62,057 bases of DNA, taken from Clostridium sp. (GTDB taxonomy: Bacteria > Bacillota_I > Bacilli_A > RF39 > UBA660). Below are positions 22,915 to 29,165 of this stretch, one piece after another; position 1 is the stretch's first letter; every line of letters begins with the position of its first letter. The translations under genes were made by a program, and so were the position numbers. The stretch covers positions 1 through 62,057 of the forward strand of contig JAMPDH010000007.1 of assembly GCA_023665725.1 (NCBI GenBank), in the 5' to 3' direction. Below the pieces are notes generated by a model. The model had not been told where the DNA came from. It saw only the letters and a program-made list of their open reading frames with translations, and made no database searches.

Positions 22915-23676
22915 ATGATAAAAATATTAATGATAGATGATAATATTAATTTAGTGAAAATGGTAGAAGAATATTTTAAAGATAAGGAAAATATATCAAT
23001 TTGTTTTAAAGCCTATGATGGGAAAGATGGGATTGAATTAATAGAAAGTAAGCAAAATGATTATGATATTATATTACTTGATTTAATTATGCCTAAAAAA
23101 GATGGTTTATATGTTCTTGAGGAAATGAAGAAAAGAAAAATAGATAAAAAGGTAATAGTTGAAACAAGTTATAATACACAAGAAGTTATAAAACAAGTAT
23201 CAGATTATGGAGTAAATTATTTTATTTTGAAACCATTTGAATTAGATGATTTAGAAAATAGAATTACTAGCTTATTTAATAGAAAAGATGACTCTAAAAC
23301 ATTAGACTTTTATCACAATAATTTACGTGTTTCTATAACTAAAATTTTACATGAACTTGGAATACCATCTCATATAAAAGGTTATCAATATATAAGAGAA
23401 GGCATAAGTATAATATTTGAACGTCCTGAAACAATTGGTGGTATAACAAAAGAATTATATCCAGAACTAGCTTTAAAATTTGATACAACGGTTTCTAGAG
23501 TAGAAAGGGCAATTAGACATGCAATAGAGGTTAGCTGGAACAGAGGAGATTGGTCTTTAATGGAAGAAATATTTGGACATAGTGTAGATATAGATAAAGC
23601 AAAACCAACTAATTCAGAATTCATTGTAACTGTCGCAGATAAGTTAAGACTTGAAAACTATAAGGTTGAAAATTAA
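22915..23676 (+). CDS. spo0A: Master sporulation response regulator Spo0A
   Basis: Spo0A, once phosphorylated, switches the cell into sporulation. The 253 residues comprise a receiver domain (about 1-120) with the acidic pair DD (residues 9-10), phospho-acceptor Asp in [14 protein letters not shown] and Lys in ILKPF, and the Spo0A_C DNA-binding domain (about 140-253). The latter is nearly identical to Bacillus in [20 protein letters not shown] and KAPTNSEF-type text ([20 protein letters not shown]). GAGGGAG precedes ATG. It is embedded between tpiA and gpmI, an unusual home. An inverted 0A-like repeat suggests autoregulation; GTGAATTA at 22857-22864 resembles a sigma-H -10. Confidence 0.98.
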
Positions 23677-23748: not shown

Positions 23749-25242
23749 ATGAAACCAGTTGTACTTTGTATATTAGATGGAGTTGGAGAAAGAAAAGAAG
23801 TGCATGGTAATGCGGTTAAATTAGCAAATACTCCTACTATTGATTATTTATTAAATAACTATCCACATAGCTTATTAAATGCTAGCGGAACATATGTAGG
23901 TCTTCCCGATAATCAGATGGGTAATAGCGAAGTGGGACATTTAAATATAGGAGCAGGAAGAGTTGTCTATCAACCTTTACAATTTATTACTAAAAGCATT
24001 GAAAATAAAACTTTTTTTAATAATGAAAACTTATTAGAAGTTATTAATCATGTAAAAAAAAATAAATCCAAATTACATATATGTGGATTATTAAGCGATG
24101 GTGGAATTCACTCACATATATCTCACCTTTATGCAATATTAGATATGTGTAAGCAAGAAAATATACAAAATATTTATCTTCACATGTTTACTGATGGAAG
24201 GGATACTTATCCAAGATATGCATTTAACTTTTTTGATGAATTAGATAAAAAATTAAAAGATTTAGGAATAGGGAAAATTGCTACAATATCAGGTAGATAT
24301 TATGCAATGGATAGAGATAATAATTATGACAGAATAAAAAAAGCATATGATGTAATGGTTTTAGGAAGTGGTAATAAATATAAAGATTATAAAAATCTTA
24401 TAAATGAAAATTATAATAAAGAAATAGATGATGAGTTTATAATTCCTGGGGTATTAGATGACAATGGTCTTATAGAATCAAATGATGGAATAATAGTATT
24501 TAATTATAGACCAGATAGGTTAAGAGAATTATTTAGTAGTTTAACTAATCCTAACTTCAATGGATTTAATACAAAAAAATTAGATAATATTAAACTTGTT
24601 ACTATGATGCCTGTAAGTAATGAAGTAATATGTAAAAATGCATTTGGAATACAAACATTAAATAATACATTAGGCGAATATATAAGTGGTTTAGGATTGA
24701 AACAGTTAAGAATTGCAGAAACCGAAAAATTTGCGCATGTAACTTACTTTTTTGATGGCGGTGAGGATAAACAATTAAAAAATTGTGATAGAGTATTGAT
24801 TCCATCACCAAAAGTTGCGACATATGATATGAAACCAGAAATGAGTGCTTATGAGATAACTGATACATTATTACAAAAAATTAAAGATTATGATTTGGTT
24901 ATATTAAACTATGCAAATGGTGATATGGTAGGTCACACTGGTAATTTAGAAGCATCAATAAATGCTATGCAAGTACTTGATAAATGTTTAAAAAAATTGC
25001 TTGATAAAGTAAAAGAATTAGATTGTAATTTACTTATTATTGCAGATCATGGTAATTGTGAATATATGCTAGATGAAAACAATAATAGACTTACCACACA
25101 TACTACTTCATTAGTTAATTGTATATTGTGTAATAAAAATTATAGATTAAAAAATGGATCTTTATGTGATGTGGCACCTACAGTATTAAAACTTATGGGT
25201 ATAGATATCCCTAAAGAAATGACAGGTAATACATTAATATAA
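23749..25242 (+). CDS. gpmI: 2,3-bisphosphoglycerate-independent phosphoglycerate mutase
   Basis: GpmI converts 3- to 2-phosphoglycerate using two Mn ions and a phosphoserine intermediate. The 497 residues carry CILDGVG, the nucleophile Ser in MGNSEVGHLNIGAGR, FTDGRDT, YYAMDRDNNYDR, RPDR, and the metal sites YANGDMVGHTGN and IADHGNCE. It is complete. Its own terminator follows and spo0A's precedes it, so it is a single-gene unit. Such sporulating Bacillota also use this pH-sensitive enzyme during spore formation and outgrowth. Confidence 0.97.
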   Translation: MKPVVLCILDGVGERKEVHGNAVKLANTPTIDYLLNNYPHSLLNASGTYVGLPDNQMGNSEVGHLNIGAGRVVYQPLQFITKSIENKTFFNNENLLEVINHVKKNKSKLHICGLLSDGGIHSHISHLYAILDMCKQENIQNIYLHMFTDGRDTYPRYAFNFFDELDKKLKDLGIGKIATISGRYYAMDRDNNYDRIKKAYDVMVLGSGNKYKDYKNLINENYNKEIDDEFIIPGVLDDNGLIESNDGIIVFNYRPDRLRELFSSLTNPNFNGFNTKKLDNIKLVTMMPVSNEVICKNAFGIQTLNNTLGEYISGLGLKQLRIAETEKFAHVTYFFDGGEDKQLKNCDRVLIPSPKVATYDMKPEMSAYEITDTLLQKIKDYDLVILNYANGDMVGHTGNLEASINAMQVLDKCLKKLLDKVKELDCNLLIIADHGNCEYMLDENNNRLTTHTTSLVNCILCNKNYRLKNGSLCDVAPTVLKLMGIDIPKEMTGNTLI

Positions 25243-25345: not shown

Positions 25346-26761
25346 ATGGGGAAAACAAAAATTGTAGTTACTATTGGTAAATCTACTAATACTAAGGAAA
25401 AAATGAGAAATTTAGTATTAGAAGGTACTGATGTAATAAAGATAAATATGGATGAAAATGATTATGAATTTTGTGATAGCGTTTTGGATACATTAGATGA
25501 AGTTAATAAAGAATTAAATACTAATGTTGCAGTAATGCTTGATATAAATGCAAATTGTATGAAAATAGATTTGATAAATAATAATGAGGCTTCATTAGAA
25601 TCTAATTCTATTATTAGAATATATTCTTCTAATATACTTGGTGATGAAACAAAATTCTCAGTTAATTATTCAAAAATAATAGATGATTTAGATATTGGGA
25701 GTATAATTACTGTAGATAATGGTTCATTAGAACTTAGTGTTATAGAAAAAAATTATGAATATTTGAAATGCAAAGTAATGAAGGCAGGTACAATTTATTC
25801 TAATTCAATAATACATGTAATAGGTATAAAACCAAGCACATCGTTTTTAAATGAGAAAGGTAAAAAAGATATATTATATGCGATAAATAAAAATATAGAT
25901 TATATAGCTATGTCATTTGTAAATTCATATGAGGATATACTTGAGGTAAATGATATGTTAATTGAACTTGGAAATGATCATATAGGCATAATTTCAAAAA
26001 TAGAAACAGAAAGTTCAGTAGAAGATATAGATGAAATAATTAAAGTTAGCGATGGTGTTATAATTGCACGTGGAGATTTAGGGGTAGAAATACCACCTGA
26101 AAGAATACCAGGTATACAAAAGTCAATTATTAGTAAATGTCATATGGCAGGTAAAATAAGTATAGTTGCAACTGAGTTAATACCTAGTATGGAGGAAAAC
26201 CTTACACCTACAAGAGCAGAGGTGTCTGATATAGCTAATGCAGTACTTGATGGAGTTGACGCAATTATATTATCAAGAGAAACTAGTAATGGACTTTATC
26301 CTATTGAAACTATAAATTCTGTTGAAAAAGTAATTACATCTGCAGAGGAAGGTATAGATTATATGAGTCTTCTTGATAAAGCGGCAAGAACGGAAAAACA
26401 AGATACTACGGGTGAAATATCTTATAGTGTAGCTACTCTTGCTTATAGATTAAAATCAAAAGCAATAGTTTGCCCAACTATTAGTGGATATACAGCAAAA
26501 AAAATAAGTAGATTTAGACCTAATTCATTTATAGTTGCGATAAGTAATAATATACAAACTGTTAAATCTTTATCTCTTTATTTTGGAGTAGTTCCAGTTT
26601 TAGTAAGTGAAATGAAAAGTTTAGATGTAATGATAGATAAATCAAGAGAAATTGCAATTTCTAAACTTAACTTAGAAGAAAAGGATAAAATAATAATAAC
26701 GGGAGGATATCCTTTTAAAGAAGTAAAACATACAAATTTCATTAAAGTAGAAGAAATTTAA
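25346..26761 (+). CDS. pyk: Pyruvate kinase, atypical
   Basis: The 471 residues align along the full pyruvate-kinase fold: barrel strands, a beta-domain, KIETESSVEDIDEI with the catalytic Lys, ARGDLGVEIPPE with metal-binding acids, ATELIPSM, and a C-terminal allosteric-type domain. The N-terminal active-site motifs deviate. The usual R-x-N-F-S-H reads KINMDE (32-37) and D-T-K-G-P-E-I-R reads DINANCMK (66-73), replacing both substrate Arg residues by Lys and most potassium ligands. ILSRETS replaces MLSGETA. It may be a divergent active enzyme or a regulatory relative. AGTAGGTG precedes ATG; GH31 starts 10 bases after its stop. Confidence 0.85.
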   Translation: MGKTKIVVTIGKSTNTKEKMRNLVLEGTDVIKINMDENDYEFCDSVLDTLDEVNKELNTNVAVMLDINANCMKIDLINNNEASLESNSIIRIYSSNILGDETKFSVNYSKIIDDLDIGSIITVDNGSLELSVIEKNYEYLKCKVMKAGTIYSNSIIHVIGIKPSTSFLNEKGKKDILYAINKNIDYIAMSFVNSYEDILEVNDMLIELGNDHIGIISKIETESSVEDIDEIIKVSDGVIIARGDLGVEIPPERIPGIQKSIISKCHMAGKISIVATELIPSMEENLTPTRAEVSDIANAVLDGVDAIILSRETSNGLYPIETINSVEKVITSAEEGIDYMSLLDKAARTEKQDTTGEISYSVATLAYRLKSKAIVCPTISGYTAKKISRFRPNSFIVAISNNIQTVKSLSLYFGVVPVLVSEMKSLDVMIDKSREIAISKLNLEEKDKIIITGGYPFKEVKHTNFIKVEEI

Positions 26762-26771
26762 GGGTGATAAA

Positions 26772-29165
26772 ATGTATAAAATAGGGGAACAATTTAAAAT
26801 GAATCAAAATGCAGTATCTAAAACAGATAGTGTGATAAAAGGAAATAAATATAGAATTACAGTACTTTCGGAAAGATTATTAAGACTTGAGTATAATGAA
26901 AATGGAATTTTTATAGATAATGCTAGTGAACTTGTTATAAATAGAAATTTTGATATACCAAAGTTTGAAAAAATAGAAACGAATGAACAATTATTTATAT
27001 CCACACCATGTTTTAGATTAGTTTATCAAAAGGAAAAAGTATTTGGAACATCAAAACTTATAGGAAGTCAAAATTTAAGAATAGATGTTTATGGTACTAA
27101 AAAAGTTTGGTTTTTTGGTACAGAGCAAGTTAGAAATTATGGGGCACCAGGTACTGAACTTGCTTATGATAATGCTTTAAGTAAACTAAAAAAAAGTTTA
27201 TATTCACCGGATGGTTATACAATACTTGATGATTCAAATGGAAGGATATTTGATGAAGAAGGTAACATATTAGATAGAGATACTAATGGAATAGATATGT
27301 ATTTTTTTGCATATGGTCATGATTTTATATCTTGCTTATCTGATTATTATAAACTAACCGGCTATCCAAGTTTAGTTCCACGATATGTTCTAGGAAATTG
27401 GTGGTATAGAGAATATGCATATTCTGAAGAAGAATTAAAAAAATTAATAAATAAGTTTTATGATAACGATATTCCGCTTTCTATAGTAATGCTAGGAAGT
27501 GGATGGCATATAAATAATAAACAAAATAGCGGTTTTACATTTAATAAAGAAAAATTTCCTGAACCAAAATCTATAATAAATTATTTACATAATATGGGAA
27601 TAAGACTTGGATTAAGTGTAAATCCAATAGATGGGTTTTATCCAACAGAGGATAATTATGAAGAATTAAAAAAATACTTACAAGAGGAAAAAGGTAAAAT
27701 ACCTTTTAATGCATTAGATTCTAGATGTATTGATGTTTATTTAAAACTTATAATTCATAAATTAGATAATTATGGTGTTGATTTTTATTGGATAGATTAC
27801 TTTGATAAAAACAAATTAGATACATTAAATATATTGAAACATTACCATTTTTACGATATGAAAAGAGATTACCGAAAAAGACCATTAGTATTTGCGAATA
27901 ATTCACTTATCGCACCTCATAGATATCCTGTTCTTTATTCAGGACATACAAAGGTTTCGTGGGAAACTTTAAAGGCACTATCTTATCATAATGTAAATTC
28001 AACTAATATAGGTGTTTCATGGTGGTGTCATGATATAGGTGGCTATAGTGGTGGTATTGAAGATAATGAACTTTATACAAGATATGTTCAACTTGGTACT
28101 TTTAGTCCAATTTTAAGACTTTCAGCAGGACCAAGCAAATTTTATAAGAGGGAACCATGGCGATGGGAAATAAAAACTTATGAAATATCTAAAATGTACT
28201 TAAAGCTAAGACATAAATTAATTCCATATTTATATAGTGAGGCATATTTAAATTCTAAATATGGAGTTCCACTTATAACCCCTCTATATTATATAAAACA
28301 TGAAATGTATGATGATGTATTATATAAATCAGAGTATTATTTTGGGAGTCAATTATTTATTTCACCTATAGTCACTTCAAAAGATTATACTATGGATAGA
28401 GTAATACATAAATTTTATATACCTGATGGGACTTGGTATGATTTCTTTACAGGTAAAAGATTTACCGGTAATAAAAAATATGTTTCCTTCTTCAAGGATG
28501 AAGATTACCCTGTATTTGCTAAACAAGGCGCTATAATACCACTAGGTACTAATAAAAATATAAATGATACGACACTTCCAACAGATATGGAAATACATAT
28601 ATTTCCAGGAAAATCTAATACATTTAAACTATATGAAGATGATGGGGTAAGTAATTTATATTTAAGTGATTACTATCTAATGACTATTATTGATTATAAT
28701 TATATGCCTAATAATTACACTTTAATAATAAGAGCAGCTGAAGGAAAAAGTGGTATTGTTCCTGAGAAAAGAAATTATAAATTTAAATTTAGAAATACAA
28801 AACAAGCCGATGAAGTAAGTGTATATTTAGGAAATGAAAAGATAAATTTTAATTCATATGTAGAAAAGGAAAATTTTATAGTTGAAGTAAATGATATAGA
28901 AACCATAGGAAAGCAGTTAACAGTTAATTGTAAGGGTAAAGACATTGAAGTAGATGCCATAGGAATACTAAATGAAGATATAGAAGATATCCTATCTGAT
29001 TTACCAATAGAAACAACTATGAAGGAAGAAATAGCAAAGGTTTTATTTGGAAATTTATCTATTAATAAAAAAAGAATCGCTATTAGAAGGTTTTCCAACA
29101 AAGGTTTAGATAGAAAATTTATTCAATTGTTACTTAAATTACTTGAATATGTTAAAGAAATATAA
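26772..29165 (+). CDS. Glycoside hydrolase family 31 protein with altered acid/base residue
   Basis: This 797-residue GH31 protein (alpha-glucosidase/xylosidase superfamily) has an N-terminal beta-sandwich (about 1-200), a catalytic barrel (about 200-560) and C-terminal beta domains. The nucleophile Asp is present at residue 342 (YWIDY), as is SWWCHDIGGYSGG. The segment that normally reads SGDT/N, holding the acid/base Asp, reads YSGHTKVSW with His392. The last ~60 residues are an extra helical tail. There is no signal peptide, so it is cytosolic. AGGGTGA overlaps the pyk stop region, implying co-transcription with pyk. Confidence 0.85.
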   Translation: MYKIGEQFKMNQNAVSKTDSVIKGNKYRITVLSERLLRLEYNENGIFIDNASELVINRNFDIPKFEKIETNEQLFISTPCFRLVYQKEKVFGTSKLIGSQNLRIDVYGTKKVWFFGTEQVRNYGAPGTELAYDNALSKLKKSLYSPDGYTILDDSNGRIFDEEGNILDRDTNGIDMYFFAYGHDFISCLSDYYKLTGYPSLVPRYVLGNWWYREYAYSEEELKKLINKFYDNDIPLSIVMLGSGWHINNKQNSGFTFNKEKFPEPKSIINYLHNMGIRLGLSVNPIDGFYPTEDNYEELKKYLQEEKGKIPFNALDSRCIDVYLKLIIHKLDNYGVDFYWIDYFDKNKLDTLNILKHYHFYDMKRDYRKRPLVFANNSLIAPHRYPVLYSGHTKVSWETLKALSYHNVNSTNIGVSWWCHDIGGYSGGIEDNELYTRYVQLGTFSPILRLSAGPSKFYKREPWRWEIKTYEISKMYLKLRHKLIPYLYSEAYLNSKYGVPLITPLYYIKHEMYDDVLYKSEYYFGSQLFISPIVTSKDYTMDRVIHKFYIPDGTWYDFFTGKRFTGNKKYVSFFKDEDYPVFAKQGAIIPLGTNKNINDTTLPTDMEIHIFPGKSNTFKLYEDDGVSNLYLSDYYLMTIIDYNYMPNNYTLIIRAAEGKSGIVPEKRNYKFKFRNTKQADEVSVYLGNEKINFNSYVEKENFIVEVNDIETIGKQLTVNCKGKDIEVDAIGILNEDIEDILSDLPIETTMKEEIAKVLFGNLSINKKRIAIRRFSNKGLDRKFIQLLLKLLEYVKEI

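Follow-up and report, generated by a model that had tools for sequence, protein, structure and literature searches.

A divergent pyruvate kinase paralogue with a rewritten nucleotide-side active site and a lasting GH31 neighbour in uncultured Bacilli

The ATP-forming reaction of pyruvate kinase (PK) is known from every textbook, and the active site of the enzyme hardly varies. The K+ ligands are the Oγ of Ser76, Asn74, Asp112 and the main-chain carbonyl oxygen of Thr113 (rabbit numbering; PMC4374775; PMC4284704). A signature of K+-independence has been described, consisting of Lys117 together with Leu113/Gln114 in the same numbering (PMC8835810, PMC5501398), and crenarchaeal PKs that have Ser at position 117 and Ala replacing Ser76 are also active and K+-independent (PMC4374775). 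Predicted inactive PK paralogues, the Pykl genes, exist in Drosophila (PMC11836677). No comparable clade of PK pseudoenzymes in bacteria came up in our literature search, although this argues only weakly that there is none.

The locus described here lies in a stretch of 62,057 nucleotides (the window) of a draft MAG (1.09 Mb, 29 contigs, 95% complete). Its forward strand carries, at positions 25346..26761, an unbroken ORF of 471 aa encoding a divergent PK paralogue, which matches PK profiles and belongs to a clade of orthologues; the name PykX was coined in this analysis for that paralogue clade, and the gene is referred to as pykX. Profile searches revealed the full-length PK architecture (PF00224, 278 bits; PF02887, 98 bits) and a TIGR01064 pyruv_kin score of 427 bits (cut-off, 306). 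The nearest solved structures are 3t05 of S. aureus and 2e28 of G. stearothermophilus, and the best 50 PDB matches listed for the AF2 model (pLDDT 79.6, pTM 0.78) were PKs throughout, with a TM of about 0.8. As judged from its sequence and its modelled fold, the window PykX is a member of the PK family. Compared with the barrel segment at the N terminus, the PK_C (effector/alpha-beta) domain, encoded at 26417..26749 (+), shows unusually high conservation.

Residues are numbered below as in E. coli PykF unless stated otherwise; K220, E222 and D246 correspond to K218, E220 and D244 of the window protein. Two motifs have been rewritten. Residues 30–37 (25433..25456, +) read VIKINMDE instead of VxRxNFSH, a change that comprises R32K (PEP phosphate), S36D (K+ side-chain ligand) and H37E (nucleotide side) and leaves N34 in place. 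Residues 66–73 (25541..25564, +) read DINANCMK instead of DTKGPEIR, with the substitutions T67I, G69A, P70N, E71C and R73K, and with the K+ ligand D66 kept. Thus, on the substrate side, where an active PK has Arg32, Arg73, S36/H37 and DTKGPE, we found K32, K73, D36, E37 and DINANC. A P70Q variant of E. coli PykF, altered at the same proline, has been crystallised (PDB 8edr/8eds); our literature search for this variant returned no paper.

On the metal side, all residues looked for in an active PK are present: the catalytic Lys and the divalent-metal Glu within a K-I-E motif (own residues 218–220; 25997..26005, +), the divalent-metal Asp at the end of A-R-G-D (own residues 241–244; 26066..26077, +), and T278 (own Thr276; 26171..26173, +), which is Ala in the congeners G001 and G002. 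S312 and E314 are kept as well. The translated ORF and the alignments agree exactly with an earlier note on this DNA, which had read K32, K73, KINMDE and DINANCMK from the letters alone; its statement that the catalytic Lys and metal acids persist was also correct. The same note had named, as a finding that would refute its interpretation, a family whose members have these residues and are active enzymes. We found no such family: the orthologues form a gradient, and the combination of R32K, H37E, G69A, P70N and R73K occurs, among the copies read, in the window PykX only.

Both motifs arose by substitution and not by a slip of the frame, since the codon alignment of pykX with its closest congener (66% identity) contains no indels, the other frames are rich in stops, and divergence is highest at third codon positions (0.44, versus 0.26 and 0.16). 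This alignment rules out a frameshift or an assembly scramble as the origin of the motifs. The draft state of the genome and the reliance on a single strain would speak for an error in the sequencing or assembly of the MAG, but the changes are scattered in-frame codon substitutions with the third-position divergence of coding DNA, and S36 and H37 are replaced in G001 and G002 too. We regard this explanation as extremely unlikely.

The extent of the change was assessed at 60 core positions, which had to be invariant (in at least 15 of 16 sequences) in PKs of E. coli and other Bacilli families and to show a conservation of 90% or more among the canonical copies of the window genome's own family. 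The window PykX departs from the core at 15 of the 60 positions and the canonical PK of the same genome at none, which sets these changes apart from chance. Under a division into nucleotide and metal halves that is our own grouping from the known PK active site (K+ ligands as in PMC4374775), 7/9 positions on the K+/PEP-phosphate/nucleotide side are changed, compared with 0/9 on the enolate/metal side and 8/42 elsewhere (Fisher p=0.0014 versus the others; p=0.0023 versus the metal side).

So clean a split would be expected if only the phosphoryl-acceptor half had been abandoned, with the metal/enolate half now serving other pyruvate-enolate chemistry (e.g. the decarboxylation of oxaloacetate or the enolisation of pyruvate) or passing phosphate to a different acceptor. 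Both of these example reactions can take place at the metal site of PKs. However, the nucleotide side is less altered in G001 and G002, which have nevertheless lost T278 and changed G245, so the half retained in the window is not a conserved reaction centre common to the genus, and losses on the catalytic side reach 5 to 7/9 elsewhere in the clade (G167, G270, G366 and G357). We therefore consider a repurposed enzyme of this kind decidedly improbable.

The earlier note had also stated that the Thr and Ser potassium ligands are lost, and this is true of one of them. Among the four K+ ligands, the window PykX lacks only the Ser side chain (S36D), with Asn34 and Asp66 staying in place; Thr67 ligates K+ via its main chain, and T67I does not therefore remove a ligand side chain. 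The Lys117-type signature is missing, because at rabbit position 117 (E. coli 71) the protein has C71, preceded by I67 and N68, and we rejected its assignment to the classic K+-independent PKs. K+-independence may still apply, since the crenarchaeal PKs with Ser117 and Ala76 are active without K+. Lys does occur at position 71 in two PykX or PykX-like proteins, those of G140 (L163; motif DIKGPKVR) and G078 (L103), and was apparently gained there on its own within the family of the window genome.

An active but altered PK, probably K+-independent, in which Lys32, Lys73 and the nearby changes are compensatory and ATP is formed from PEP and ADP, perhaps more slowly or with another nucleotide, is one of the two possibilities raised by the earlier note, the other being a regulatory relative. 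The unaltered catalytic Lys, metal acids, Thr278 and Glu314, the score above the TIGR01064 cut-off, the activity of crenarchaeal PKs lacking Ser76 and Glu117 without monovalent cations (PMC4374775), and the many orthologues with intact motifs that are the only PK detected in their genomes (e.g. G003, G018 and G048) all argue for it. It is weakened by C71, by a set of substitutions unmatched in the other copies read, by the canonical PK and PPDK (pyruvate phosphate dikinase) encoded in the same genome, and by the active-site segment, whose divergence in the window lineage outpaces that of the C domain. On balance we think it possible, though rather unlikely.

The second PK of the window genome, for which the earlier note had suggested a search, is indeed present (G000:C23:30145-31548) and is canonical at 60/60 core positions. 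PPDK is encoded on contig C25 (TIGR01828, 1388 bits). The presence of both enzymes makes an altered or non-catalytic role of PykX easier to accept, which favours that part of the earlier proposal, whereas the missing Lys117 signature speaks against its potassium part.

The sampling of the family spans some 150 genera. PK is absent from 54/172 good genomes (about 31%) and PPDK is matched in 156/172 (about 91%), so that the conversion of PEP to pyruvate is independent of PK in this family and PK activity is dispensable. Frequent occurrence of PPDK genes was reported earlier for related environmental Tenericutes/Bacilli lineages (PMC7301438). A literature search found no paper that names PPDK together with RF39, the lineage to which the family is probably akin. 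Genomes with PykX that lack PPDK have either intact or nearly intact motifs (G137, G127) or a second PK (G103, G148), which fits the idea that PPDK permits loss of the active site, although four genomes prove nothing.

In a PK tree (n=153) the window PykX falls inside a clade of 89 sequences (support 0.989), apart from the canonical PK of its own genome. As sampled, the clade is limited to the family of the window genome, which consists of small-genome uncultured Bacilli; the search of the genome contigs for related loci returned only one close relative. Active-site residues were lost repeatedly within the clade. With weakly supported nodes collapsed, the minimum numbers of independent changes are 14 each for R73, H37 and T67, 17 for S36 (counting replacements by residues other than Ser and Thr), 7 each for T278 and D246, 4 for E222 and 1 for K220.

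Degeneration is uneven. No more than one active-site core change was found in 30/87 core PykX proteins, which are probably active PKs, and the clade is thus not a pseudoenzyme family; the remaining proteins have up to 11/18 changes. The window PykX has the most nucleotide-side changes and is the sole heavily changed member with an unaltered metal side. In the congeners G001 (L082) and G002 (L062), S36 and H37 are replaced as in the window, R32 and R73 are kept, and T278A is accompanied by G245A/T; PykX is the sole PK detected in both genomes, which may be devoid of PK activity and dependent on PPDK. The PykX proteins of G167 (L174), G270 (L166), G366 (L156) and G357 (L162), with 5 to 7/9 core changes on the metal/enolate side, are stronger pseudoenzyme candidates than that of the window. 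In G167, K220 itself has been lost (Lys to Arg). In G366 a canonical PK gene stands in tandem, upstream of pykX.

We found no dependence of PykX degeneration on the presence of a canonical PK (p=0.78). By hand count, some 28 genomes with a core PykX have it as their sole PF00224 PK, and 15 of these genomes reach a completeness of 90% or more, a count covering only genomes searched with PF00224 and including drafts, which miss genes. A clade-wide role of PykX as a regulatory subunit of canonical PK is disfavoured by these two results; such a role is possible in the window species, which has both proteins.

Despite these losses, pykX is under purifying selection and the protein is maintained. 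Pairwise dN/dS (NG86) between the window pykX and its congeners is 0.19–0.21, a rough figure given that dS exceeds 1, and that between G001 and G002, both with T278A, is 0.11. The frame is open in all complete copies read, and the window PykX retains 86/92 clade-conserved positions. Constraint has also shifted within the protein. When the divergence of the C domain is divided by that of the first barrel segment (A1), canonical PKs give a ratio of 1.48 (17 pairs), whereas PykX gives 0.90 (38 pairs; Mann-Whitney p=1.7e-5) and the window–G001 pair 0.64. In PykX, the C domain and the second half of the barrel are now guarded above the active-site cap.

These data bear on the suggestion that pykX is a functionless gene in slow decay, tolerated since PPDK and canonical PK suffice. 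The repeated residue losses, the absence of PK from about a third of the good genomes of the family and the near universality of PPDK are in keeping with decay. However, we found neither a broken frame nor selection relaxed over the whole length (dN/dS about 0.2), clade-conserved positions are kept, the C domain is better conserved than in active PKs, and the pairing with GH31 persists in 87/88 loci. Decay is accordingly disfavoured, and we judge it very unlikely.

That pairing, mentioned in the earlier note as mere adjacency, is the most conserved feature of the locus. In the window, a GH31 glycoside hydrolase gene (797 aa; 26772..29165, +) starts 10 nt past the pykX stop. It lies directly 3′ of pykX in 87 of the 88 core loci with enough sequence downstream (gap of at most 38 nt, median 15 nt), and the window pair has the arrangement typical of the clade, with GH31 on the same strand within 40 nt. 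Among early-branching PykX-like copies this holds for 1/20, and among canonical PK copies of the family (0/27) and outgroup-family copies (0/15) for none. In G210 (L118) the GH31 gene beside pykX is split into two ORFs, with a single TGA in frame.

Genes upstream of pykX are shuffled (38 clusters among 66 loci), so the pgk-tpi-spo0A-gpmI neighbourhood is specific to the window; this applies also to gpmI (iPGM; 23749..25242, +), the neighbour in the window species, which is unconserved in relatives. A glycolytic-operon role deduced from pgk-tpi-gpmI was rejected on the same grounds. The Spo0A gene between tpiA and gpmI (22915-23676; TIGR02875, 265 bits versus a cut-off of 200) is found here in a genome of 1.1 Mb.

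The pairing of pykX with GH31 suggests that the two genes are co-expressed and that their products may work together. GH31 does not exist only for PykX, being nearly universal in the family regardless of it (154/172 genomes). Moreover, leuS frequently comes after GH31 at these loci, so the downstream conservation may be partly plain synteny, and the adjacency, though lasting, is not proof of an interaction with PykX.

The explanation that we prefer, to which we give about an even chance, sees in PykX a PK paralogue in the course of divergence. Its window member would probably have given up the catalysis that forms ATP and would be maintained to bind or to regulate, possibly in connection with GH31. 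A duplicated PK gene would have become fixed upstream of GH31 as a two-gene unit. In the window species, the half of the active site that holds K+ and the phosphates of PEP and of the nucleotide has been rewritten, and the Lys/Glu/Asp/Thr half for the enolate and divalent metal is retained, as are the fold and the effector domain at the C terminus. Such a protein would no longer phosphorylate ADP from PEP at any useful speed, the flux from PEP to pyruvate being borne by the canonical PK and/or PPDK. It could still bind a ligand of the metal-enolate type, as well as an effector via the C domain, and would act by binding, in a regulatory or structural capacity; the most plausible partner would be the GH31 protein made from the same transcript, or PykX itself as an oligomer.

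Several observations count against this explanation: degeneration is unlinked to canonical PK, which misfits a simple release of PykX by a backup copy; all metal/enolate residues of the window protein are intact and both Arg changes are conservative (to Lys); and the clade includes the 30 probably active members. A bolder version, which we consider unlikely, is that PykX is a GH31-coupled regulatory pseudo-PK. It would respond to a ligand resembling PEP or pyruvate and to a sugar-phosphate effector, and would govern the alpha-glucan hydrolase produced along with it, its ATP-forming chemistry having been discarded many times independently in this one bacterial family.

The clade, in which the nucleotide/K+ half was dismantled repeatedly and yet selection and the GH31 pairing persist, would offer naturally occurring stages, between an intact and a gutted site, for the study of a glycolytic enzyme turning non-ATP-making. 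Automatic annotation labels every PykX as pyruvate kinase, and models built from the genomes of these uncultured bacteria may credit activity that some members lack.

Compared with bacterial K+-dependent PKs (TIGR01064; 3t05, 2e28 and E. coli PykF), the window PykX is homologous over its full length (A, B and C domains), is 35–36% identical to 3t05 and 2e28 across the whole protein, retains the modelled fold and keeps K220, E222, D246, T278 and E314, but it has R32, S36, H37, T67, G69, P70, E71 and R73 all replaced. Like the K+-independent PKs (the Lys117 type, e.g. one Vibrio cholerae isozyme, and the crenarchaeal enzymes), it lacks Glu117 and Thr113; unlike the Lys117 type, it has Cys at 117 and Ile/Asn for Leu113/Gln114, and its likeness to the crenarchaeal PKs, which are distant homologues, is drawn from K+-site positions only. 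The canonical PK of its own genome is of the same family (38% identity), but is intact at all core positions, lies away from GH31 and belongs to another clade of the tree. Like Drosophila Pykl, the window PykX is a PK duplicate with active-site loss alongside a canonical active copy, whereas the Pykl genes are animal, testis-biased, of unrelated origin and unpaired with a glycoside hydrolase. The interest of PykX lies in the recurrence of loss, the shifted constraint and the fixed GH31 partner.
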